A DNA stretch of 18,822 nt from Hepatocystis sp. ex Piliocolobus tephrosceles. Lineage: Eukaryota > Apicomplexa > Aconoidasida > Haemosporida > Plasmodiidae. Made by a program: the position numbers and the translations under genes. Positions 626 to 18,519 of this stretch are shown here, in pieces. Under the pieces are notes generated by a model. That model was not told where the DNA came from. It ran no database searches and was given only the letters and a program-made list of their open reading frames with translations. The stretch is from positions 19,579 through 38,400 of the forward strand of contig CABPSV020000055.1 of the NCBI GenBank assembly GCA_902459845.2. The letters are read 5' to 3'. The first letter of the stretch is position 1; every line of letters starts with the position of its first letter.

Positions 626-3109
626 ATGTCATCTGCAGACAGTGAAAATGTGGTAACTAAGTACATCATCGTGACGGGCGGGAATATGAGCGGGTTAGGT
701 AAAGGAACCGCAATGAGTAGCATAGGTGTACTATTATTAACAAAAAATATTTTACTAACAACAATTAAAATAGATCCTTATTTAAATGTGGATGCAGGAA
801 CTATGTCGCCATATGAACATGGAGAGGTATATGTATTAGAAGATGGAGGAGAAGTAGACTTGGATTTAGGAAATTATGAAAGATTTTTAAATGTAAAATT
901 AACACATAAAAATAATATAACATCAGGTAAAATTTATGAGGAAGTTATAAAAAGAGAAAGAAAAGGAGAATATTTGGGAAAAACTGTTCAAGTAGTACCT
1001 CATGTTACAAATGTAATTAAAAAATGGATTAAAGATGTGATAGATGAAAGTATAAAAAAAATGAAAAAAGAATATAATATTATTAATTCAGTTAATAAGG
1101 TACCATGTATATGTCTAATAGAAGTAGGTGGTACTGTTGGTGATATTGAATCTGCTGTTTATTTAGAAGCTTTACAACAATTAACAAATAATTTAAACCA
1201 TGATGATGTTTGTTTATGTCATTTATCTTATTTACCTATCATTGGAAATTTAAAAGAACAAAAAACTAAACCAACACAACATAGTGTAAAAATTTTGAGA
1301 GAAGCTGGATTAAAACCTGATTTTATATTTTGTAGATGTGAAGAACCATTATCAGATGAAGCCATCCAAAAAATATCATTATTTTCACAAGTTAAAAAAG
1401 AACATGTTATATCTTTACATGATACATCAAATGTGTATAAAGTACCATTAATATTAGAACAACAAAATTTTAGTTCAAATGTTTTAAAAAAATTAAATTT
1501 ATTAAATATTACATTAAAAAATAAAATACAAATATCACCTTATTCTTTTAATACTTGGAAACATTTATGTGATAGATATGAATCTTCTACTGAACCTGTT
1601 GTAATTGGTATAGTAGGGAAATATACTGCGTCTAATGATACATACTTATCTATCATTTCAGCTTTAGTTCATGCATGTATACAATGTGGATACAAACTTA
1701 TTATTAAATATATTAACAGTAGTCATTTGTCATTGAAAAAAAAAAGTAAAAAAAAATATATAAATGCGAAAAAAAAAGCAAATAAATATTCATATGAAAC
1801 AGGCTCAGAAATTAATTCAACCAGAAAACAATTGTTTGTTGATGATACAACATCAGATGAAGATTATGATAAAAAAAGAAGAATTAAATATATGCAAGCA
1901 TGGAAAACATTAAAATCAGTTGATGGGGTTTTAGTACCTGGTGGATTTGGAACAAGAGGTATAGAAGGTAAATATTTATCTTCAAAATATTGTAGAATTA
2001 AAAATATACCATATTTAGGTATATGTTTGGGTATGCAAATAGCTGTTATAGATGTTACAAGAGAGTATTTAAATAAATATGCTAATTCAGAAGAGTTTGA
2101 AGATGTTATAGATCTTCAAAATAATTCAGACAAAGAACAACACCTATATGACAGTAGTGATGATAACAACAATATTGATAATAAAAACAAAAAAAAAAGA
2201 CAATTTGTATCTGATAATTTGGATAATGAAAATGTTAATAATTGTGATAAAAAAAAAGTACAATGGAATGCATTAACTAATGAGATTGAACAAACAAGAA
2301 CAGATGAACATAAACTTTTTAACCATATTGAAAATGGTATAATCCATAATAATACTCTCACAAATCATATTAATATTTCTAGTAGCATAACCAATACAAA
2401 CGATTCTTATGAAAACCAAAACGTACAAAACTATAATGAAAAAATATGTACAAAAAGTGAAAGCGAATGGACACATATGGAAGACTTTGAATATTATGAT
2501 AGAGATACAAAGTATATGTACAACAATACTAATAGTCTTAGTAATAATAATACAAATCATTTAACCCATATTCAACAATGCATTGACGATATACCTAAAA
2601 AAATGCAAGATCCATTATTTCAAGAAAAAATAAAATTACTAGGTATACAAAAATATTATAAAAGCATAAACGAAATAGATAATAATAATGTTATAGTATC
2701 CATGGTTGAATTTAAAGGAGAGGAAACGAAAGGTGGTACTATGCGTTTAGGACTTAAACAATCTAAAATTGTCGATAAGGAATCATTAACTTATAAAGCA
2801 TATGATGAAGCAGCACATATATTTGAAAGACATAGACATCGGTTTGAAATTAACCCACAATATGTACCTCTTTTAGAAGCAGTAGGTCTCAGTTTTGTAG
2901 CTAAAGATGTAGACAGTGTTCGAATGGAAATTTGTGAAATCAAAAAATTAGATTTTTTTGTAGGTGTACAATTTCATCCTGAATTTACTTCAAGACCATT
3001 CAAAGCAAACCCAATATTTTTGGCTTTTATTCTATCATCTAAGAGAAAGTTAAAGGAGCACTTGAAGCAGTTTAATAATAAATTATGTTCTGGCAATATA
3101 TACAAATAA
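626..3109 (+). CDS. CTPS: CTP synthase (glutamine-hydrolysing), Plasmodium type with two insertions
   Basis: The enzyme makes CTP from UTP, ATP and glutamine, the last step of pyrimidine nucleotide supply, in the cytosol or in filaments. Residues 12-300 are the synthase domain. The P-loop is at 18-28 (GLGKG, Lys26). KIDPYLNVDAGTMSPYEHGE lies at 48-67, DLDLGNYERF at 78-87 (Asp80 is the probable Mg ligand) and EVGGTVGDIES at 166-176 (Glu166). KTKPTQHSV is at 213-221. Residues 323-800 are a class I glutamine amidotransferase domain: oxyanion loop PGGFGTRG 438-445, nucleophile Cys467 in GICLGMQ, GGTMRLG 703-709, RHRHRFEIN 735-743, and His784/Glu786 in QFHPEF. The family is usually about 545-600 aa. 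The extra length sits mainly in two inserts, about 368-417 and 493-688. Two inserts are known in P. falciparum CTP synthetase. The start ATG lies in GCGAAAATG with A at -3 and directly precedes the conserved KYIIVTGG. The frame is complete and no intron is needed. Confidence 0.97.
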   Translation: MSSADSENVVTKYIIVTGGNMSGLGKGTAMSSIGVLLLTKNILLTTIKIDPYLNVDAGTMSPYEHGEVYVLEDGGEVDLDLGNYERFLNVKLTHKNNITSGKIYEEVIKRERKGEYLGKTVQVVPHVTNVIKKWIKDVIDESIKKMKKEYNIINSVNKVPCICLIEVGGTVGDIESAVYLEALQQLTNNLNHDDVCLCHLSYLPIIGNLKEQKTKPTQHSVKILREAGLKPDFIFCRCEEPLSDEAIQKISLFSQVKKEHVISLHDTSNVYKVPLILEQQNFSSNVLKKLNLLNITLKNKIQISPYSFNTWKHLCDRYESSTEPVVIGIVGKYTASNDTYLSIISALVHACIQCGYKLIIKYINSSHLSLKKKSKKKYINAKKKANKYSYETGSEINSTRKQLFVDDTTSDEDYDKKRRIKYMQAWKTLKSVDGVLVPGGFGTRGIEGKYLSSKYCRIKNIPYLGICLGMQIAVIDVTREYLNKYANSEEFEDVIDLQNNSDKEQHLYDSSDDNNNIDNKNKKKRQFVSDNLDNENVNNCDKKKVQWNALTNEIEQTRTDEHKLFNHIENGIIHNNTLTNHINISSSITNTNDSYENQNVQNYNEKICTKSESEWTHMEDFEYYDRDTKYMYNNTNSLSNNNTNHLTHIQQCIDDIPKKMQDPLFQEKIKLLGIQKYYKSINEIDNNNVIVSMVEFKGEETKGGTMRLGLKQSKIVDKESLTYKAYDEAAHIFERHRHRFEINPQYVPLLEAVGLSFVAKDVDSVRMEICEIKKLDFFVGVQFHPEFTSRPFKANPIFLAFILSSKRKLKEHLKQFNNKLCSGNIYK
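1727..1876 (+). other. CTP synthase insert 1 (Lys-rich then acidic)
   Basis: Residues about 368-417 interrupt the glutaminase domain between the strand ending KYINSSHL and the helix YMQAWKTLKSVDG, where bacterial and human enzymes have only about 10 residues. The first half is strongly basic (KKKSKKK, then KKKANK). The second half is acidic and Ser/Thr-containing (DDTTSDEDYD), resembling casein-kinase-2 type sites. The basic half could act as a nuclear signal or RNA contact, but that is inference only. Confidence 0.75.
2102..2689 (+). other. CTP synthase insert 2 (Asn/Asp-rich, about 190 residues)
   Basis: Residues about 493-688 are hydrophilic, N/D/K/T-rich and probably surface exposed. They lie between NSEEF and VIVSMVEF, about 25 residues after the catalytic Cys467 and before GGTMRLG. 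Other CTP synthases have a short loop here. The final third (about 652-682, including IPKKMQDPLFQEKIKLLGIQ) is less repetitive, contains hydrophobic positions and could form a helix. Confidence 0.75.
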
Positions 3110-3992: not shown

Positions 3993-4370
3993 ACGAATGT
4001 ATGTACGTATACGCGCATGCTTATAGGGTGTGGTAAAATAAGTTAACTACGAAGGGGGAAAGTATTAACAGTATGCACGTGTATGTACATACCACATAAA
4101 AAATAAATAAATAATTCGAGCAAGGAATTTATATATATATATATATATACAAACAAAAAAAGAAGCGGTCATATAATAATAAAAAAAAAAAAAAAAAAAA
4201 AGACAAAACTGAATAATCAGAAAGAACTGATGAAATCTAATTAAATAAAAAAGATAAATAAATAAAAAAGATAAAATAAATAAAAAAGATAAAATAAATA
4301 AAAAAGATAAAATAAATAAAAAAGATAAAATAAATAAAAAAGATAAAATAAATAAAAGTAATAAAAAAAA
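3110..4370. other. Convergent intergenic region (shared 3' flanks)
   Basis: This lies between the stop codon of CTP synthase and the revised stop codon of the - strand gene. It contains homopolymer runs (T about 3157-3179, A 3220-3251, T about 3643-3664, A about 4181-4201) and (TA)n tracts (3482-3523, about 3957-3988, about 4130-4149). A short GGATTT hexamer run sits near 3733-3755 and an 18-bp tandem repeat at 4243-4355. No protein-like frame or RNA gene was recognised. Both 3' UTRs and both polyadenylation sites must fall here. Confidence 0.75.
4243..4355. repeat. 18-bp tandem repeat next to the revised stop codon
   Basis: About six copies of AAAAAAGATAAAATAAAT; the GAT cores are at 4253, 4270, 4288, 4306, 4324 and 4342, so the spacing is 17 then 18, 18, 18, 18. 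The array begins 16 bp downstream (on the - strand) of the stop codon proposed for the giant gene, so it would lie in that gene's 3' UTR. Confidence 0.85.
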
Positions 4371-4613
4371 TTAATAATAATGAAAGTTTAATTTGTAACA
4401 AAATATAAGGCTATCTATTAATATTGCATATACAGTTAATTCAAAGTCATCATTTCCTTTTTTCGTATATATAACATCAAAACCAGCGACAAAATAATTT
4501 TGGGATCCCGTAGTACATGTACTATTATGAATTTTAATTTTCTTGATATTATACCTTATATCATTTACAATATATTCCTTTTCATTAATACATTTCAGCT
4601 TGGTGTTGTTATG
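4371..4613 (-). other. Proposed terminal exon of the giant WD-like gene
   Basis: After the acceptor at 4614 the frame reads CAT AAC AAC ACC AAG and stays open for 80 codons to TAA (4373-4371), exactly in phase 0 with exon 1. The product has mixed composition with Cys, Gly, Thr and alternating hydrophobics (YFVAGFDVIYTK, FELTVYAILIDSLIFCYKL), unlike the poly-Lys translation of the intron. It has higher GC than its surroundings (CTACGGGATCCC, GTCGCTGG). The last stretch looks like two beta strands of a propeller blade. Confidence 0.82.
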
Positions 4614-4620
4614 CTATAAG

Positions 4621-4663
<43 letters not shown>

Positions 4664-7600
4664 ATGTATACATATATGTGCACATATATATGCGTAAAAT
4701 AAACAAAATTGTGCACACTTGCAAGACATAATTAAAAAAAAAAAAAAATCGTATTAAAGTGTTTATATTTTACAATTTTTTTTATTTTATTTTTTTTTTT
4801 TTGTTCTGTATGTTTCTGTTGATATATGTTTTTTTTTTTTTTTTTTTTTTTGTGTGTTACCTGATAAAAACGGCGAATGCAGTGGCGGTAGTGTAAGGGA
4901 ATAACAAAAGCGGGTACCAGAAAGTAAGTATCGGTGTACACGCATTGTTTAATAAAATAAACGTATATAACGTTATTATATTGATTGGCTAGCAGTATAC
5001 ATGATTTCTCATATATAATTTTTAATAGGCTAATACGAGATGAAATACTAGAATATGAAGTTTGTGTTTTTTTAGGTCCAGTTTGAAATGCTATGGGTAT
5101 AAATTGTGAGTGAAAAAAATTATTCGTTATTTTTGTAAATCCAATTTTAAATAAATATAAATAATATGAATCTGCAGCTATTACAAAATATTTACTTAAT
5201 TGTTTTTTTTCTTCCTTATTTACAATAGAAGAAAATGCTTTGTTGTTTTTATTTTTGCAAAAACCACATTTTTTACATAAAAAATTTTTATTAGCATTTA
5301 CTGATTCATTGTGATGATTAAAAATATTATATTTATCTGCATTCATTGTAATAAAGTTCTCACTATCACTACTATTGTATTTTTTAATTTTTTTTTTTTT
5401 TTCTCTATAATTTGTACTCATGTGAGAGTATAAAAATCTTAGAGTTGATATATTTAACAATACTAGATTTTTTTTATATTGTGGTAATAAAAAAAAGAAA
5501 CTATCGAAAAAAGGATTTAAATATAAGTTATTATTGTCTTTCTCAAATTGTTTTTTATCAAGTTCTGTTGATACTAATTCGCTAAGCAAATAAATAAACA
5601 TAGTATCACCAAAAAATGTATAATCGTTTAAAATATAATCTCTTATATTTGTAACCATTCTGTAAATAAAATGTTTATCTAAAAGGTATTTATATTTTTT
5701 ATGAAATAAATTGGAAGTTAAAAATGTCAAAAAATAAGATTGATTTTTTGTTAAGTTTTCAAAAAATTCTTTTTGTTTCGTTTTATATATTTCCTTATTA
5801 TTATTATTATCATTATGTTTAAATAGTAATTTTAAATTCTTTAATGTAAGTAAATATAATATTTTTACTACTTTCATATTAATATAAAAATTATTATTAA
5901 TGTATTTGTATTCGAAGGTTATTTTTCTCATGATGTACTTTTTTAATGCTTCTGTATTGACTCTAACAATGAAAATAAGAACTCTGAGTGTTTTAAAATG
6001 TTTTATGTCTTTTTCCTTGTCCCTGTCCTTATCCTTATCCAAATCTTTGTTTTGGTTTTGGTTTTGGTTTTGGTTTTGGTTTTGATTTTTGTTTTGGTTT
6101 TGATTTTTGTTTTTGTTTTGGTTTTGATTTTGGTTTTGGTTTTGGTTTTGATTTTTGTTTTGGTTTTGGTTTTGGTTTTGGTTTTGATTTTTGTTTTTGT
6201 TTTGATTTTGATTTTGGTTTTGATTTTTGTTTTTGTTTTGATTTTTGTTTTGGTTTTTGTTATTTCTTTCGTTTTTCATCATTTTATCAATTTCGCCCAA
6301 ACCAAGCCCACACATGTTTTCGTAATTATTTTTTACTTTGCATATGTGAATATCTGTTTGGAAAATAAGATTTTGTCGTTTGTTTGTACGTTTGTCGTAA
6401 TTCGTATTCGAATTGGTTATATTCGCTTCGGTAGATCCACATTTTTGGGAAATTTTACTTCTGTCTATGTCCTTATTATATCTACCATTTACCGAATATT
6501 TACTTTGGTTATGACTGTTGCAATTATGCATATATCTCACATTTACAATAATTAACCCCTTTCCAGTATATTTATACATATTTTGTAATATGTTTAAATT
6601 GTTAAAATAATTAACTCTATACATTTTATTTTTTGAATTTAAAAAACAAATATTAAACTTTTTTTTTTCTTTTTTTAACACTTCTTTTAAATCACTCTTT
6701 TTTAATGGACGTTTTGTTGAATTACTGTGTGGGTTCCTTTTTTGGGGGGTCAAGTTTGTATTTTTGTCTGTTTTGTTCGTTTTGTCTGTTTTGTTCGTCG
6801 CATCTGTTTTGTCTGTTTCATCCGTTTCGTCTGTTTCATCCGTTTCGTCTGTTTCATCCGTTTCGTCTGATTCATCTGTCTCATCCATCTCTTCCGTCTC
6901 ATTCGTCTCATCCGTCTCTTCCGTTTCATCCGTTTCGTCCCTTTTGCTGGCTTTTCCTTTCTTCCTTTCTTGCCATTTTTTTTTTTTTTTTTTTTTTTTT
7001 TCATATCGGTTTCCATTTTCGTCCGAGTTAAACGAACCTACAGAATAATAACCTATGTCATCGTCTGCTTTAAAATCACCCAGATATCGTTCAAATAATT
7101 CGTTTTTAACATTATGTTTTTTGTTACTACTATTACTACAACTGACATCATCAATATTATCCCGTTTCATACCTTCTTGTACTCCTTCCTTTTTCGTACA
7201 TTTTGAATATATATTGTCTTTATTACTTTTCACTTTTTTATTTCTAGATTTATAAATATTGCTTGTTTGAAAATATCTATGATGATTAATAATTTTATTT
7301 TCATGCGAAATATTTATTATATTATGTATAACATTATGAAAGTTGGCAATATTATTTTTTAATATGACCGTATATCCTTTATTTATAACGTTATTACTTC
7401 CATTATCATACTTGTTATCATTGTGATGACTACTAGAAAAACAATCACTATTTTGTTTACCTATGTTACAATCATCTTTCAATAATTGTTCTTTTTTTAA
7501 TAATTTTAAGTATGACATAAAATTTTTATTAAAAAGTTTATTATTTTTATTACTTCTTTTGTTACGACCATTATTATTACTAGTATTGATACTTCCTTGG

Positions 7601-10600
7601 TCAGAAAAATACACTGAATAATTAAGTAAAAGTTCGTTTAATATTTTTGATTCGTCATAACTTCCTGTAATATGAAAATTAAAATATAAATTCGGTTTCA
7701 ATGCTTTATATGTATTTATATACCTAGTTAATATTTTATTTTTTATATGATAATATATACTTTTGAAATTTTGCATTTCTACAAATTGTTTTATTTTCTT
7801 TTCAAATAAGGTTAATAATTTTTTACTACCATCCATATTTTTTGGTTCTAATCGATCTGATAAAAATAGTAAACTATTTTCATTTTTTAATTTGTTTGTA
7901 TATTTATATAATAAAGATTGTTCATATTCTATTTTTTTTAAATAATCTTTGTCAAATACATTATTATTTTTATCAATATTCTTAAAATAAAAATTCATAT
8001 ATTTGTGTTTTTTTCTTTGGTATGGATAGTTTTTTGTTATACAATGGTTTTCTTTAAGGCCATCGGAAGAATAATCTGTTATAAAGTTTAATTCTTTGCT
8101 ACTGTTACACAGGTTCATATGTGACACGTTTTTATTGAAACTATTCAATTGGCTAATATCCTTTCCTTGCAGTTTAACCAATGCTTCTAGTTGTCTTCTC
8201 GGATTCGATTCGAACTGCTTTCTCGAATTCGATTCCAAACGCTTTTTCGAATTCGATTCCAAACGCTTTTTCGAATTCGATTCCAATCGCTTTTTCGAAT
8301 TCGATTCCAATCGCTTTTTCGAATTCGATTCTAACCACTTTTTCGAATTCGATTCTAACCACTTTTTCGAATTCGATTCTAACCACTTTTTCGAATTCGA
8401 TTCTAACCACTTTTTCGGATTCGATTCTAACCACTTTTTCGGATGCATTTCCGACTTTATTTTTTTTTCCGTTACAGAGTGATCGGAAAAAATATTAATC
8501 GAAGGTATTAAATAATCTAACCTTTTTTTTTTTTTTTTTCCTTTAAAATTTTTATAAATATAATCACCACTATTAATATAATCCATTTCATAGTCAGTAA
8601 TAATACATGTATTATCCTTGCAATCAGTTTCTTTTAATATGTCCTTCTGAACTTCATGGTAATTAGGATTGGATTTTGGATATAGTATAAAATATCTTTT
8701 TTGTAAATTATGTGTAACATATTTCATACTGGAATAAACTTGTTTTACTTTTTTTTTATCTTTCCAATATTTATCATCAATTTTGTATTTTTCTTGTGTT
8801 AATAAAACTTGTATTAAATTATTAAGAGTACAATCTTTTAAAAGTTGATTTTTTTTTATACCTAATGAGTGTAAATAAGAGATCCAGTTTGTTCGCTCTG
8901 TATATTCGTCACTATTTCCCCTACTCTTTTTTTTACTACCACCAATACGACTATTAACATTGTTATAACTTTCGTATGTATAATTAGTTTTATTCGGAAG
9001 ATGCAAAAAAGATAATATAAATAACTGAAATAATGAATACTTTTCACAAAATTGACTAAAATAATGCCTTAATATAAATTTTCCAAAAAATGGAAAAAAT
9101 GAAGCATAATTATAAGCCGGTTGAGTATAAACAAAAGTAGATGCATATTTATGAAATAATTCAACCAAAGGATCAAATTTGGGAATATTTTTTTTTATAG
9201 CAAAATCACAACTCCAACCCATGTATTCTAGTTTATATTTACACAATAGATTATGCTTATTTATGTTACAAAGTATTTCTTTATCTTTTTTATTCTGATA
9301 CATTTTTGTTTCATGATATGTTTTATCAAATATGTTTTTTTTGCTTAAATAATTTATTTGTGGTTTAAAAATAGAGAGCCAAGTTGTGCAACCATCATGA
9401 AATTCGTTATTGTTACAGTTTGAAGTAAAATAATTATTACTATTACCATTTTCAAATACATTTTTTTTATTAGGATTAAAAATATGACCATATATATCAA
9501 ACTCATTATCCAAACGATGATTTTCTACATTCATAATATTCCACAAAACTACACTCTTATCAATTGAACAAGACAAAAGAAAATTACAATCTGGTGAAAA
9601 TTTAACACATGGTACATTATGTTCATGATGGACGATTGTAGTGTTGTAAAATCTTGAATATAAATTAGATTTTTTAAAAAAAAGTTCTTGAAATATATCA
9701 TACCAATCACACGTATAACTAGTAGCATTAAATGAATACGAATTTATTTTATGTATTAACGATTTTTCTTTTATTGACCCTAATCCACAATCTAATTTAT
9801 CGAAGCAATTTATAGGTAACGCTTCTTTATTATAATACATATTTTTTAAAATTTTTAATACATCTTCACTGTACAAATCATTTTTAACTTTCCTACTTTT
9901 AAATTGTACAAATGAGCTAATATTTTGATTCAAATATTTTATTATTTTGTTTGTTATAATCGACATACGTTCACCCATATCATTGTTATTACCATCTTTT
10001 TTTTTCAAATTTGACATCTTATTTATTATCATATTAACTTCATAACAATTCTGTTGTAATAAATATTTATGTAGTAATGTATGTTTTATAAAAAAATCAT
10101 TAGGTTTATTATATGTTATATTTTTTTCTTTTTTAATGACAACGTTTTTAACTTTATTGTTACTGTTATTGTTACTATTATTGTTACTGCTACTATTACC
10201 ATTACTATTACCATTACTATAACTCAAATAACAACTACTACATTCTTTTTTTTTAAAATCTTTAATATGTAGAGTAACAAGTTCTGTATTTTTTTTCATT
10301 CCTGTTCTCTTTCTATTTTTATTTTTTTCAATGCTACTACAGTTACTAGTGTCATACTGTTCTATACCATTTACAAGTCCATCAATTCTCCCTTTGCAAT
10401 TTTTCTCCAGTACTCTTTTTTTTAAATAATAGTTTGTTTCCTGTTCCTTTTTTTTATTATTTTTTATAATAACATCATAATCATTTGCATATAAAATATA
10501 ATGTTCATGTTTTAAAAAATTGTATACAGACTGAAAGTTAATAATAGTACTGTCGTATACAAACAGATCAGCTGAATGTTCACATTTAGAGCACTTGAAA

Positions 10601-13600
10601 TTACTACTCTTATTATTGTTATTATTATTTCCATAACTATTAGTAGCATAAATGGAATCATATTTATAACTGTTATCATTGTAGTCGCACGATGAGTGTT
10701 CCATCATACTAAAGTCGCTACTTGAGTTACTTGACGAGTAATCGTATGAACAACTTGACAATTCGAATGATGATTTATTTTTAATATTGTTGCTGGTCTT
10801 ATCAACAGTTGTACTCTCGCATCTTGGCTCATTGTATTGTTTCATCGGGATTTTGTTTACACCATCACTTGTACAGGTATCTATAGCTATACTTGTCTTA
10901 ACATTTGTCTTGGCAACATCTGTAAACGAATCTTTAATTGCATAATCTTTTTCACCATCTTCTTTCTCATGGTTAGGAATACATATAATATCTGAATGAT
11001 CCGAGATACACTCCAACAATGTATTCACATCCACATCCACATCCCCATCCACATCCATGCCCACATCCACATCCACGCCCACATCCACATCCACATCCAC
11101 ATCCACATCCACGCCCACATCCACATCCACATTCATTTCCTCTTTTTGTTCCTTTTTACTATCAAACAACAAACATTCACTATTTCTTTCTTCTTCCACT
11201 GGTTCATAATTCTTTTTATCTAAAAATGTTGTATTTAATAAATTGCATCTTTGAGCCATATGTTCATCCAGACCTTCGTACACAATAACAATATCATAAG
11301 ACGATGATATATTTTTTTTTTTTTTTTTTTTTTTTATTCCTCCTTTTTTTTTATCTGAATCATTATTATATTCTAATAATATCTGATCTGCACTTTTTGA
11401 GAGTGTATATACATATTTAATTATTTTGTCATATTTTCCCTTTGAAAATATATTTTCCACAGTTAAAGGTATTTCATAAAAAGCAGTTTGCTCGTCAAAT
11501 ATTTTTTCTGTATTCTCATTTTTGATATTATTTGAATTTGTTATTTTTGACATATCTTTTGTATCTTTTTTTAATAATTCGTAGTTTTTGTAGTCACTTT
11601 TTGTTTTTTTTTTTGTTGTTGTTGTTGTTGTGGTTACACCATTTTGGTATGTATTGTTATTATTTACATTACTTATAATTCCAGTCCCTTCTTGTGTTCT
11701 TCGAACACCCCCTTGCAGTACACTAACATCTATAATATTATCATTAATTAATGTTCGACTTATATAAATAAATATTTCATTATTATTTGTATTGAGTATA
11801 CCATTTCCTATATTTAAACAATTATCATAGAACAAATTAAAAAGTACATAACTACTGTTTTGTATCGCAGATTGAATTAGTTGTTGTGTACTGGTATCAT
11901 GGACTAAATGAACGTTATGATCGATCATGTTCTCATTATTCCTATTTACATTACCTGTTGGAAAATTAAATAGTGTTAAGTTATTTCCTTGATATAAATC
12001 TAAAATATTATTTGTACCATTTATTACAGAATAATTTACAACCCTTTCTGTGCTTTCATTTCCTAAATTATTGTTTATGTTTTCACTAGGTAAGTTAATT
12101 TGAGGCATGAGTCTACTACTGACAACATTGACATTATTTATAAAAAAATTATGTAATGTTCTGAACCCATTAGTACCATGTAAAAATAAAAAGTCTGGAT
12201 CCACTAAACTTTGGTCATACCCTGCTTCACTTGATAAATCATGTGTTTGTAACAGCCCATCATTATATATCAAGTTTACTGTATGTCCCAAATTTATTCT
12301 TAATTCAACTGCTATTACATCTGTATTATCACCAGTTAAATGAGTATTACCGACTATGCTATCTTCTATAACATTGTCATTACTAATACAATTTTCATTC
12401 TCTTCACTTGGTATAGAATGAAAATTACCTTCAGTATCACTTTGGGTCTTGGGTGTAAAATTATTACCACTACTACTACTATCACTACCACTACTATCAC
12501 TACCACTACTACCACTACCACTACCACTACCACTACCACTACCACTACCACTACCACTACCACTACCACTACCACTACCACTACCACTACCACTACCACT
12601 ACCACTACCACTACCACTACCACTACCACTACCACTACCACTGCCACTGCCACTGCCACTGCCACTACCACTATCACCCATAGTACCATTACCCTTTCTG
12701 GTGTTATGGTAATGTTCCATTTTTGCTTTACTCATCAAACTGTTATTATATATATTTATGTCACTTAACTCCATTTCTATTGTATGATTTATGATACCGT
12801 GAATATGTTCTGAAGTATTAAACAACTCGTTTTTTAAAATTCTTTGTTTTTCCTTTCCTGTTTTATATTGCAGACGTTTCATTTCATTTGTTAAAGGAAT
12901 GTGTTTTGACAACGTTTTCTCTTCTCCACTTATATTAATACTACTTCTACTATTACTGTTCATAGTATTGTTATTATCTCTACTTCTACTACTAACATTA
13001 CTAGTATAACTATTATTAATACTATCATAACAACTGCTTATACTATTATTACGATTACGATTAGAGTCCTTATTTTTTAATGAATAATCATAGCCATCCT
13101 TATAAGAATTTGCATTTCTAGAATTTATAGATAAAACCTCATTCAAATTTTGACAACCGTCTAAATTTTTTTCATTTAATAAATATATTATATCTAAAGT
13201 ATTACCATTATGATCACGCAATTCACATATTAATAAAATTTTTTTTTTTTTTTTTTCTTGAGGTACATTACTTTTTTCTCCTTCTTTTTCAGATTCAAAA
13301 TTATAATAACGATTTTTATAATTTAATTTAAATTCTTCACATACATTTCTTTGTATATTCTTAACTATCATTTTTAATTCGTTATTATATTTTATAGTAG
13401 TATTCGTATACTCATTTTTATGCTTTCTACTTTTTTTTTTATTTAATACTATCAATATATTATCATCGTTTGAGCATAAATAATGTTTACGACTAAATAA
13501 AAAGTTGTGTCTGTCTTTAATGAATTGGCGAAAATTTTGACTAATACATTTTAAGACGAAATTCGCTTTTTTGTAGTTATATATATGAGTGTACATTATG

Positions 13601-16600
13601 AGTTTCTTTTTTTTTTTCTCATCTCCTATATTCTTACCTATGTCATCATCGAACTTTCCACACTTGTTGTCATATTTTAAACCGTTATAATAATCACCAT
13701 TGGCTATTTCATGACTATCTGAAGTGACAACAACATACTCAGTATTTTTTTCCATCAAATTATACGATATTTTTGAACTATATAGTATTATATCATTATC
13801 ATTTATTGGTTCATCATCACTAGAAATTTTTATATATAACTCTTTATTAATCAGATTAATCTTTTCATCATTGGTAATCATGTTTTGCTTTTTTATATTA
13901 TATTTATTTAACTTTTTTTTATTATTCATTTTTTTTTGTTTTGTAATAGTGTTATAATCATTTTCACATTTTAAATACTCTATTTTGTTGTTTCCATTTT
14001 TGTTGTTTCCATTTTTGTTGTTTCCATTTTTGTTGTTTCCACTTGTGTTGTCTCCACTTGTGTTGTCTCCACTTTTTTTGTTGTCTCCATTTTTTTTGTT
14101 GCTTCCACTGCTACCATTCCCATCCTCTAATTTCTTCCTCTCCAACCGACAGGGGCTCCTAATAATATCGTTTCTTACCATGTCTCTATACACGTATCTT
14201 ATATACCAAGTTGGCATATATTTTTGAAAATTCATTACTATTGTATTATCATTAAACAGTTTTACATTATTATAATAATAAGGGAAAAATTTTTTAATAT
14301 AATTTCTTTTGATTCTTTTTATACCTGATGCAGCATTACTAAAAATATTATCAGAACAGTTTATAATTTTGTTTATTTTTTCGAGTTCTTTATGTAACCC
14401 AGCTTCTTTTAGTAAAAATAAAAAAATATCACCTGATTCATGATAGGCTATTGTAAATAACATGTTTTTTAAATTTTCTTTTCTATTATAAAAAAGCGAT
14501 TTTATGCTTAAGGGAATGTAACTAGGAGGTTTAAGTGTATCATATATTATTTTGTTAGCTCTTTGAACACTCATTCTGTTGCCACGATTATGTGCGTTAC
14601 GTTTGTTACTACCACCACTACCAATACTACTACCACTACCGTTACCACTACTTTTACCACTACTGTTACCACTACTGTTACTACTACTTTTACCACTACT
14701 GTTACTACTACTGTTACCACTACCACTATCACTACCACTACCACCACTATTCACTCGCAAACATGCTTCACATGCGTGCACATTTCCCTCCTTATTCCAA
14801 ACCAAGTCGGCTCTACCATCAATCATTTTTTTGCTGACATAAAAATTATTAAATTCATTATATGTTTTAGTTAAAAACTGTTCATACTTATGTACAAAAC
14901 GATTAAAAGTTTGTATATTATCAACATTGGTATGTTGTTGCATGTCCAGCTGTTTCTCTTTACTATTATTCATTAAGTAATGATCTGAATAATATAATTT
15001 GCTTTCACATAACAAACAATCTTTTTGCATATTCAAACTGACCCCGTTCATATATCTTGTGTATATACCACTTTCCTCATTTGGTATGTTTTTATTTTTT
15101 TTTTTTTTTTTTTTTTTTTTTACATATCTTATGATACTTCTGTTTAACAAAGAAAAGGGTGCTACTTCAGTTATTTTGTTACCATTTAAATATGTTAGTT
15201 TTTTTTTTTTATATTTCTGTACACATTTAAGGAATGCTTTTTTATCTCTTTTTATTAGGGTGCATTTCCTACGTACTCGTTCATAAATACTATCAGATAA
15301 ACAATTGCCCATAATGTTTAACTGAGTGTTATCATAAAAATTTTCTTTATCTGTATATAATTCGTTGTTAACCTTGTTTTTAGCTTTATCTGATAAATAT
15401 AATTCAACGATTTTGTTTTGTTCATTCTGGTAGTTGATTAATGTTTCTACTTCTTTTGTATAATTCGCTTTTTTTTTTTTTTTATCATCGGTTTCTAAAT
15501 GCGTCAACTGCTTGGGACAGTTGTTCATATTTTTACTTGTTCTTTTGCTGGTACATTTACTGGTACATTTACTAGTACATTTACTGGTACATTTACTAGT
15601 ACATTTACTGGTACATTTACTGGTACATTTACTAGTACATTTACTGGTACATTTACTAGTACATTTACTGGTACATTTACTGGTACATTTACTGGTACAT
15701 TTACTGGTACACTTGCTGGTACACTTGCTGGTACACTTGCTGGTACATCTGCTTTTGCTTTTATTTACTGATAAAAATAAAGCATTTTTTTTGTCACTAC
15801 TCTTTAATTTGGCTACTTGTTTGCTGTTCTGCTTTTTTAATATTCCATTACGATTGTCATTACGCTTACTACTATTACCAAAGTGAAACATAAAACCATC
15901 ATCAGAAATATTATTAAACAATTCATTTATTTTTATTTTTTTATTCATTAATAATTTAGTAAAATATTTTATAGCTTCGTCATAATTGTATCTTTTTCGA
16001 AAATAGTAAAAATTATTTAAATTGTATATATGTATTTTATGCTCGTTTGAACCAACAGCTAATAAATTTTTTTTAAAATTAAATGAAATTGCCCAAGTAC
16101 TTGTATCATATTCCACATCAAATACATATTTTATAACTATATCTGGTTTAACATATATATCAAAACATTTTAACAAAGTTTCATATTCACTAGTTCTGAA
16201 AAAATGGAAACGAAATATATCATCTGATTCCCATATTTTATTGTATCTTATTTTAATAGTTGGATCTGACAACATATTTACTTGTTTCTCATAATATTTA
16301 TTTTGGTAATCCATCATAGAATTACGTAACAAATGAGCAAAGTGAATTCTTGATTTTCGCAATTTATAATAGGTATTCATATATCGCGTGTACTCTTGTA
16401 AATTTTTATTTAACCGTTTTTGTCGTAATTCTTTTGAATTTGTTACTTTTTTAACGTTTTTTATTTTTTTAGGGGATGTCATTTCTGTTTGACTTTTTCG
16501 TCTATTCGAACTTAATTCATTTTTACCTGAATAAGTTTGTGTTGTTTGTAAAATGGATGAATACAGAGATAATTTCTTATCAAATTTTTGTGCCGATGAA

Positions 16601-18519
16601 ATTTGGATTCGTCCATTTGTCCCATCGGTTGGTTTGGTTCTACCTATTGACTTATCTTTCTCAACTAGTACTGCACTAATTTCTGTATCAGTATGATACC
16701 CCCTTTTTAGCAAATGCAAAAATCCATTTTGTTTGCTTGATCTGGTAGTCACATTTCTTACTTTTTTTTTATTCTTTTTTTTTTTTTCATCATCACTACT
16801 TGACTTGATATATTCATTAAAAAATGCATTTTCCATTGTGGTCAAATTTATATAATCATTATGTTCATTTATATGTGAATTATTCCTTAAATTGTATCCT
16901 GAATAAACATCTTTATACATTTGTTTGTAACAAAAATTTTCGCCTTCTTTATCATAATTTGTTAAGTTATTTGAGTAATAATTATTATAAAAACTATTAT
17001 TCAATTTATTTTGTTTTATAGAATCTTTTTTTTTTGTATCTATCCATCTTTTATTTAAAAATTTTGTTTCTATTTCTTCTTCCGCACTTTCAAGATCACT
17101 ACAAATATCACTTACTTTAATCCTTTTTTTACATATATTATTCGTATTAGTATCGATGCCGTTGTTCTGTACATAACAATTGCTATTACTATTATTGAAA
17201 TTATCATTGTTATATTTTGACGATTTTAATATACATTTAAATTTTCTTTTATATAAACCCAGTTTGTTTCCGTTTGTATTGTGATGTAAGTATTTTTTTC
17301 CCATCCATTTTAATGGACTAGTTCCACTTCCATAATTACTTTTTATCCTACAACTACTACTACTACTACTACCGTTGCCACATCCACTACTACCCGTACC
17401 ACCATAATTGCTGTTGGTAACATCAATTTTCCCTTTTTTGCTCTTTCTTTTTGTACGTGAATCAAGTCTTTTTTTATTGGTCACTAAATTTTGAGTAATA
17501 CTTATACTACTACCACTTAAATCGAATTTGTTATAAGGAATGATTTGTTTACAACTACTACTAGTAGTAGTAGTAGTAGTAGTAGTGTTGTCTATTGTTT
17601 TATTATTTTGTTGGGTCAATTTATATAAATAAAAATTTCTTTTCTTTTTTGTTTTATTTCGAGTAAAATGAAAATATCTCATATCTCCTGACATATCAAA
17701 CATATCAACCAAATCATTAGAAATACTGATGTTTTTATTTTTATATCCATTAGTATGTATCAAATTAAATATAAAATCTATTTCGTTGATTTTTAATTTG
17801 TTTATACAATTATATTTTGCATAATGAACTAAACCATTTTTAAAAAAGGTGTGACAAGGTGTAAATGGTAAATCTAATTCTTCATTTTTGTTATAATTTT
17901 CTTCATATCTTTTATCAAGATATAATTTCTGTTCTAATGCACGTTTTAAATTATTTTTTATATTTATACATTCAACAAGTTTTTCAATATAATAAACATT
18001 TTTAGCACCACATAATCCAACTGAAATTAATATACTTTTATCACCATAATTACAATTTTCTTCACATCGAATATTTACAAACCCTTTCGAACTATATAAC
18101 GGAGATATGACTAAAGATGGAGTAGGTGTATGTAATAAATTAAATTGTAAATCTATTTTAATTTCATCATAAGCATGTGTTATTCTATTAATATTTGTAA
18201 ACCCATCATTCTTATTGCCTATATCATTTTTATAAAAGCTTTTTAAAGCATCCGAATTTGCATAATCATTTTTTTCATTAAGATAAATATCATTATTTAT
18301 TGTGAACTTACTTAATTCGTATACATATATATATGAATCATAACAAATGAATAGTAAATCATATTTTTTACTTACACATAATAAATTCAAAGCAAAACTA
18401 ACAAATTTATGTTTAACTGCTCTACTTAAATTATACGAAAATAAATATTCAACATTACTATTTTTTAAAACTTGCACTTTTTTCCAAGGATTATATTCTC
18501 CCTTGTTTAATGCGCTCAT
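4371..18519 (-). CDS. Giant WD-repeat/beta-propeller-like protein, two exons, possibly Crt10-like
   Basis: join: exon 1 18519-4861 (4553 codons) and exon 2 4613-4371 (80 aa plus TAA), giving 4633 aa. The ATG at 18519 is the first Met after an in-frame TAG at 18561-18559, in context TTAAAATGAGC. Conserved islands in order: an N-terminal propeller-like strand (LLFICYDSYIYVYEL, about 55-69); WAISFNFKKNLLAVGSNEHK (809-828), a WD-type blade; HNVPCVKFSPD...VVLWNI (about 2967-2994), a clear WD repeat; MGWSCDFAI (about 3100-3108); and C-terminal strands after about 4435 (YFVIAADSYYLYLF, CILLANQYNNVIYVY). Exon 2 ends with FELTVYAILIDSLIFCYKL. Between the islands are enormous K/N/S-rich inserts and tandem repeats. 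A basic, NLS-like cluster (KKRLDSRTKRKSKKGK) lies at about 348-363. No signal peptide or membrane segment is evident. The order of islands recalls fungal Crt10, a WD protein reported to affect RNR gene expression and to bind an Rtt101-Mms1 ligase. That is tentative and the function is unknown. Confidence 0.88.
4614..4860 (-). other. Proposed 247-bp intron (GT-AG)
   Basis: The donor is TATCAG|GTAACAC at 4861/4860 and the acceptor is a 42-base T run (A run 4621-4662 on the + strand) followed by CTTATAG at 4620-4614. The interior is T- and A-run sequence typical of Plasmodium introns. Reading through it from exon 1 gives 42 codons rich in Lys and ending in Phe repeats, then a stop, which is typical intron translation. 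Exon 1 up to the donor is exactly 4553 codons, so the splice is phase 0. Confidence 0.82.
6047..6262 (-). repeat. Asn-Gln / Asn-Lys dipeptide array
   Basis: This coding hexamer repeat (GTTTTG on the + strand) encodes alternating NQ and NK at about residues 4087-4158 of the giant protein, directly followed by a D/K/R/E run (DLDKDKDRDKEKD, + strand 6008-6046). It is a low-complexity, prion-like N/Q tract. Its length is probably polymorphic. Confidence 0.85.
6762..6939 (-). repeat. Thr-Asp-Glu (TDE) tripeptide array
   Basis: A 9-bp period encodes TDE with EET, DES, TNE and, at the C-terminal end, TDK/TNK variants at about residues 3861-3920. It lies right after a Lys run. The strongly acidic array turns to TNKTDKTNKTDK, so charge falls along the repeat. 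Confidence 0.85.
8185..8442 (-). repeat. 24-bp minisatellite encoding octapeptide SKKWLESN
   Basis: Ten full 24-bp units and one partial unit (258 bp) encode residues 3360-3445. The ordered variants are PKKWLESN twice, SKKWLESN three times, SKKRLESN four times, SRKQFESN once and PRRQLE. Most units contain the palindrome TCGAATTCGA at the Glu-Ser-Asn-Ser codons. The Trp/Leu spacing with Lys and Glu could form an amphipathic helical repeat. The array is richer in GC than its surroundings. Confidence 0.92.
11026..11133 (-). repeat. Asp-Val dipeptide array
   Basis: A 6-bp repeat (CATCCA on the + strand) encodes alternating D and V with occasional G or M at about residues 2463-2498. The alternating acidic/beta-branched pattern is unusual among Plasmodium low-complexity tracts, which are normally Asn- or Lys-rich. 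Confidence 0.88.
12511..12672 (-). repeat. Ser-Gly dipeptide array (about 27 hexamers)
   Basis: A nearly perfect 6-bp repeat (CCACTA on the + strand, codons AGT GGT) runs for about 162 bp and encodes (SG)n at about residues 1950-2003. Four units near 12640-12665 use GGC instead of GGT, marking one edge. On the other side it degrades into SSGSDSSGSDSSSS. The peptide would be a long flexible linker resembling glycosaminoglycan-attachment SG runs, but no signal peptide is present, so that use is unlikely. Confidence 0.92.
13984..14104 (-). repeat. 15-bp repeat encoding GNNKN / GDNTS
   Basis: Tandem 15-bp units (about TTGTTGTTTCCATTT on the + strand) encode GNNKN about four times and GDNTS twice, preceded by the diverged GDNKKS and GSNKKN versions, in a hydrophilic linker at about residues 1472-1512. 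Confidence 0.82.
14605..14751 (-). repeat. Ser/Gly/Asn-rich trinucleotide-based array
   Basis: Degenerate ACT/ACC/GTT triplets on the + strand encode GGSGSDSGSGNSSSNSSGKSSSN-type sequence at about residues 1257-1305, immediately after the CEAC motif (Cys1250/Cys1253). The stretch is compositionally biased rather than a precise tandem repeat. Confidence 0.75.
15544..15747 (-). repeat. 12-bp minisatellite encoding 17 copies of CTSK
   Basis: Exactly 17 units of 12 bp encode Cys-Thr-Ser-Lys at residues 925-992, followed by one RTSK. Synonymous variants (AGT/AGC for Ser, ACC/ACT for Thr, AAA/AAG for Lys) sit in an ordered pattern with a 60-bp higher-order period. Seventeen cysteines at four-residue spacing, alternating with lysines, is rare. 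Confidence 0.95.
17554..17586 (-). repeat. Short poly-Thr/poly-Ser trinucleotide run
   Basis: An (ACT)n run on the coding strand changes to (AGT)n and encodes eight Thr followed by three Ser at about residues 312-322. It is a coding microsatellite likely to vary in length. Confidence 0.8.

Follow-up and report, generated by a model that had tools for sequence, protein, structure and literature searches.

The giant gene on the minus strand of the analysed window, a stretch of 18,822 nucleotides from Hepatocystis sp. ex Piliocolobus tephrosceles, very probably ends in a spliced terminal exon, which would supply the conserved C-terminus of a WD repeat-containing protein. The coding sequence is proposed to be split into two or more exons. 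The coding part of exon 1 (4861..18519, minus strand) is an open frame of 4553 codons from the ATG at 18519 to the CAG at 4861, and exon 2 (4371..4613, minus strand) contributes 80 codons and the stop codon TAA. Removal of a conventional phase-0 GT-AG intron of 247 bases (4860..4614) would join the residues ...YQ, encoded up to 4861, to HNN..., encoded from 4613 onwards, and result in a protein of 4633 amino acids with the C-terminal end FCYKLNFHYY. This is an ordinary gene structure and no surprise; it matters here since it replaces the end of the protein that is obtained when the gene is read as a single open reading frame.

The minus-strand frame extends from 18558 to 4732 and comprises 4608 codons, the 14th of which is the first ATG (18519), so that a single-ORF model gives a protein of 4595 amino acids. 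The initial annotation had proposed that the last 42 of these codons are a Lys-rich stretch that starts exactly at a splice donor, and that the protein continues in a separate downstream frame. On the minus strand, the donor indeed lies in the context TTTTATCAG/GTAACACAC, with TATCAG before and GTAACAC after the cut, and the frame stays open for exactly 42 codons beyond it (4732..4860, minus strand), where it reads VTHKKKKKKK...FFFF before its stop codon; this read-through tail lies outside the predicted protein. The proposed intron (4614..4860, minus strand) runs from GTAACAC to TTTTTCTTATAG and contains a tract of exactly 42 T followed by CTTATAG. The base directly behind CTTATAG (4613) opens the phase-0 frame of 80 codons, which ends in ...FELTVYAILIDSLIFCYKLNFHYY and is closed by the TAA at 4371. 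The donor CAG/GTAACA, the tract of 42 T, the CTTATAG and the frame kept at phase 0 are all features of GT-AG introns, and the GC content is 15.8% in the intron versus 23.9% in exon 2. The lengths given in the initial annotation, 4595 amino acids for the single-ORF protein and 4633 for the spliced one, are both correct. Directly 3' of the exon-2 stop codon, about 6.5 tandem copies of an 18-base unit are found (window positions 4242-4371).

An open frame of 80 codons is by itself weak evidence for an exon in this DNA, as it is only modestly unlikely to arise by chance: 21 of 20,000 first-order Markov sequences modelled on this flank stay open for 80 codons, and so do 34 of the 2,042 start positions in the real DNA between 3110 and 4370, counted on both strands. 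Exon 2 is rather placed beyond chance by its homology to related proteins. Using the end of exon 1 as query, a protein search retrieved two relatives at E-values up to 0.001, and a search with the C-terminus of the P. ovale protein retrieved nine, including both of the former. These nine proteins stem from P. ovale curtisi, P. malariae, P. brasilianum, P. gallinaceum, P. relictum, P. fragile, P. knowlesi and two subspecies of P. vinckei; they represent about seven lineages, because the proteins of P. malariae and P. brasilianum (99% identical) and those of the two P. vinckei subspecies (96%) are near duplicates. When the last 150 residues of each relative were compared with the window by tblastn, exon 2 was matched by all nine (E-values between 1e-23 and 2.6e-18), and every relative matched in two blocks, one at the end of exon 1 (from 5028 or 5025 to 4894-4873) and one in exon 2 (from 4613-4580 to 4374). 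The second block starts at 4613, the predicted first base of exon 2, in two of the nine relatives (P. fragile and P. knowlesi). The exon has a single match in its own assembly (12.4 Mb in 611 contigs, with the window on contig C53).

A homologue of the 80 residues closes the proteins of all nine relatives, down to the last residues FCYKLxFxYY, and this conserved end is supplied in the window gene by exon 2 only. The conservation in other Plasmodium genomes, which had been named as a check of the proposed exon, is thus found in 9/9 retrieved homologues from eight species. Identity to the relatives amounts to 40-51% in exon 2 versus 41-47% in the adjoining part of exon 1, and 19 of the 80 exon-2 columns are invariant across all ten aligned sequences; as judged from these alignments, exon 2 has evolved in the same manner as the coding sequence next to it. 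Over all aligned parts, the window protein is 37-43% identical to the nine relatives. In the C-terminal alignment it shares 42-48% identity with each of them, and the relatives are 44-99% identical among themselves; an unrooted FastTree phylogeny of this alignment places the window sequence on a long branch beside the two P. vinckei sequences (support 0.858). An ORF of 316 amino acids from the Hepatocystis assembly has its best PDB matches among L-lactate dehydrogenases (1oc4, E 7e-179). At the other end of the protein, the start of exon 1 resembles by eye that of seven of the nine relatives, with M...PW(K/E/Q/N)xV near the first residues; the exceptions are P. ovale, whose start is longer, and P. 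malariae, whose model lacks an N-terminus. Aligned with the almost identical P. brasilianum protein (P0007, 4326 aa), the P. malariae model (P0006, 3284 aa) sets in only at residue 468 and is probably a truncated gene model. A further entry (P0013) bears the name of a partial WD repeat protein of P. ovale curtisi. Over 1028 residues it shares 99% identity with the P. vinckei petteri protein (P0012), and its identity to the P. ovale protein (P0004) is only 44% and 31% in two stretches; it is probably a rodent-malaria sequence inside a P. ovale assembly. It is possible that the models of the relatives' proteins are computational and have an annotation habit in common. The exon had been described as missed, which holds for a single-ORF reading of the Hepatocystis genome but has to be limited to it, because the annotated proteins of the relatives already carry this ending.

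The choice of the junction was evaluated by scoring 137 pairs of GT and AG sites (16 donors and 12 acceptors) against a profile built from the C-terminal 260 residues of the relatives; pairs with an intron shorter than 40 bases or a stop codon before the donor were dropped, and an open frame past the junction was not demanded. The pair 4860/4613 ranks first among the 137 with 301.0 bits, and neither the read-through nor any other junction outscored it. The best pair with another donor reaches 282.1 bits, and the donor at 4860 is accordingly rated as well supported by the sequence comparison. The proposed acceptor appears less certain than the donor, as it rests on the pyrimidine tract and a small score margin: the 42 T, the CTTATAG and the top score speak for the acceptor that the initial annotation had chosen, but a rival AG 15 bases further on scores only 3.2 bits less. 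If this AG, just before 4598, was used with the same donor, or if both acceptors were used, the exon would start in frame at 4598 and the protein would lack HNNTK and have 4628 amino acids. This alternative is very improbable, since the rival AG is not preceded by a pyrimidine tract and its score is slightly lower (297.8 versus 301.0 bits); moreover, the first AG past the pyrimidine tract is normally the one taken. The residues flanking the proposed junction (HYRHCIRRFYQ/HNNTKLKC) lie in a region of 25 to 30 poorly conserved residues, and near the junction, where the relatives have PLYTExIGKEL or a similar sequence, the window protein reads PLHYRHCIRRFYQ. Exon 1 closes with 60 bases (window 4861-4920, minus strand) that have a GC content of 48%, and the 1-kb means across the window range from 19 to 33%; this GC-rich end of exon 1 encodes residues that depart from the otherwise conserved PLYTExIGKEL stretch of the relatives.

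Two other readings dispense with the intron, either always or in part of the transcripts, and both draw on the fact that the frame remains open for 42 codons beyond the donor. If the mRNA was read through, the protein would have a Lys-rich C-terminus, and exon 2 would be a remnant or a separate ORF. However, when the Lys-rich tail was compared with the last 300 residues of the nine relatives at E-values up to 0.01, none of them matched, which agrees with the earlier view that the tail is not protein; in addition, the reading frame continues undisturbed through exon 2, whose conservation equals that of the adjoining part of exon 1, and the unspliced sequence (200.8 bits) scores 100 bits lower than the proposed junction. 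A gene without splicing is therefore extremely unlikely. Alternatively, the terminal intron could be optional, with its retention giving rise to a second isoform in which the Lys-rich tail replaces the last conserved strands. Any intron can be read for some distance, however, and the tail shows no sign of selection and has no counterpart among the relatives, which makes a retained intron very improbable. The spliced terminal exon remains the preferred reading, supported by the conservation of exon 2, the junction score and the unmatched Lys-rich tail.

A Pfam search of the giant protein (P0001) revealed one WD40 repeat above the cut-off (residues 2974-3007, 1.9e-08). Most of exon 1 is covered by ordered blocks of similarity to the relatives, with 11 blocks shared with P. 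ovale (P0004) and ten with a second relative (P0005), at E-values from 1e-4 to 9e-76. The relatives are annotated as 'WD repeat-containing protein', 'conserved Plasmodium protein, unknown function' or 'hypothetical protein', and their lengths are, among others, 3898 aa in P. ovale, 4050 aa in P. fragile, 4028 aa in P. knowlesi and 3553 aa in P. gallinaceum. Tandem arrays within the coding sequence of the giant gene are located at 6049-6261, 6801-6939, 8199-8441, 11026-11132, 12472-12677, 13983-14100, 14619-14751 and 15532-15748; their periods are multiples of three, and they encode runs such as NQNQ, DETDET, SKKWLESN, DVDV, SGSG and CTSK.

PF3D7_1410300, a P. falciparum WD-repeat protein interrupted by very large insertions of low complexity, is the probable counterpart of the giant protein, an assignment based on synteny and description rather than on direct sequence comparison. 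PF14_0101 is the old number of this P. falciparum gene. The convergent neighbour of the giant gene in the window, which serves as synteny anchor only, encodes a CTP synthase of 827 amino acids from the ATG at 626 (626..3109, plus strand; Pfam CTP_synth_N 1.3e-114, GATase 1.7e-29). Within its glutamine amidotransferase part, this CTP synthase is interrupted by a long insertion rich in Asn and Lys, and the Pfam match to GATase is divided into two stretches. In P. falciparum, CTP synthase is listed as PF3D7_1410200 (PMC9675800), a gene number directly followed by PF3D7_1410300. Among the WD-repeat proteins listed for P. falciparum, PF3D7_1410300 is the longest with 4405 amino acids (PMC4456382). 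The codon changes listed for it place the gene on the minus strand, and its codons 1157 and 4186 are, as calculated from the same list, 9087 bases apart (PMC10128974). As this distance corresponds to exactly 3029 codons (3 x 3029), the P. falciparum gene model has no intron between these two codons, and any intron close to its end would have to be located past codon 4186 of 4405. The sequence of PF3D7_1410300 was not among the matches of the three protein searches for relatives. The giant protein resembles the annotated relatives in its collinear conserved blocks, the WD40 repeat and the C-terminal stretch of about 80 residues.

Exon 2 had also been described as containing beta-strand-like segments. 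Structure models of the last 501 and the last 203 residues of the P. gallinaceum protein, based on 6 and 7 sequences, reached mean pLDDT values of 34.3 and 40.7, which is too low for fold searches. In both models, which are of low confidence, the end of the exon-1 part forms four strands and the exon-2 part forms three, separated by the junction region. Judged from these models, exon 2 would probably provide the final three predicted strands of a conserved C-terminal beta domain, after a unit of four predicted strands with which exon 1 ends. In this way exon 2 may close the final blade of a domain resembling a beta-propeller; because of the low confidence of the models, this role is guessed from the secondary structure. 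The blocks TWAISFNF...LLAIGSN and HNIPCVKFSPD... are about 1670 residues apart in P. gallinaceum. In a version of the protein that was condensed by hand, both blocks were matched together by propeller profiles, among them THOC3 (residues 252-405, E 1.3e-09) and CDC20 (residues 255-402, E 4e-09), in both cases below the curated cut-offs of the families. These matches would fit blades of one propeller that have been driven apart by insertions. Profile searches of the PDB retrieved WD40-propeller-type chains, mainly via one repeat, among the best 60 of 99 and the best 60 of 271 matches.

Work on P. falciparum offers a possible function for such a protein. PF3D7_1410300 is one of two WD proteins that were significantly enriched with PfCUL4-HA in schizonts, and it was named as a possible substrate receptor, a function that is proposed only (PMC11481892). 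It is also contained in the pull-down of PfRBX1 (PMC12218279). By analogy, the giant protein as a whole would probably serve a ubiquitin ligase of the cullin-4 type, either as scaffold or as substrate receptor. In P. berghei gametocytes, the CUL4 study names WIG1 as the sole WD protein found with CUL4 or DDB1, and not the counterpart of PF3D7_1410300 (PMC11481892). Like the known CUL4-DDB1 substrate receptors (DCAFs, e.g., Plasmodium WIG1), the giant protein is of the WD40 type, and its P. falciparum counterpart was found with CUL4 and RBX1; unlike them, none of the ten long proteins examined contains the WDxR-type motif W[DN]x[RK], where the window protein was scanned with its unspliced tail and exon 2 contains no W. 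Not all DCAFs are known to carry the WDxR-type motif. In the Hepatocystis assembly, cullin matches are located on contigs C60 and C238, and the CPSF_A domain was matched on C5 only, beside a match to an RSE1-type propeller; a separate DDB1 partner was thus not found in this incomplete assembly of 12.4 Mb. Taken together, the blade-closing and the ligase roles are regarded as a tentative proposal that is somewhat doubtful in its combined form.

A more specific version of this idea concerns Crt10. The order of the conserved motifs (TWAISF...LLAIGSN, HNIPC..., last strands at the C-terminus) and the wording of their residues appear to resemble those of fungal Crt10-like proteins such as yeast Crt10 (Pfam PF08728), a likeness that serves as a lead only. 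Yeast Crt10 is a receptor of the Rtt101(Cul4)-Mms1 ligase (PMC10216172). The family CRT10 (PF08728) gave no match in Pfam scans of the window protein and two relatives (P0001, P0004 and P0005) at E-values up to 1, in three constructs of a further protein (P0008) at E-values up to 10, or in the window's genome, where 14 control genomes were equally silent; since the filters of HMMER drop weak matches, a distant relation could escape these scans. A protein search with a condensed four-row profile, in which scoring was restricted to the 7,992 candidates with the most words in common, returned 19 proteins, among which there was no recognisable Crt10 and no shorter apicomplexan relative: one is a named Plasmodium fragment, and the 18 others mostly have long lists of WD40 or propeller Pfam families. 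Among publications containing both 'CRT10' and 'Plasmodium', no title or beginning of an abstract dealt with this protein. It is unlikely that the giant protein is a haemosporidian Crt10-type CUL4 receptor, whose blades would be scattered along 4633 residues by low-complexity insertions and whose last blade would be closed by the terminal exon, so that splicing of the 247-base intron would decide on folding.

For the gene itself, a single-ORF model drops the conserved C-terminus and adds 42 residues without a counterpart, and this wrong end would compromise tagging at the C-terminus, the comparison of domains and any model of the structure. The end encoded by exon 2 is likely needed for folding, because it is common to malaria parasites of birds, rodents and primates. 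The value of the corrected model lies in fixing the single-ORF reading and in pointing to the conserved C-terminus of a candidate ligase receptor, and this C-terminus could be used for testing whether the giant WD protein acts as a receptor of the parasite's CUL4 ligase.
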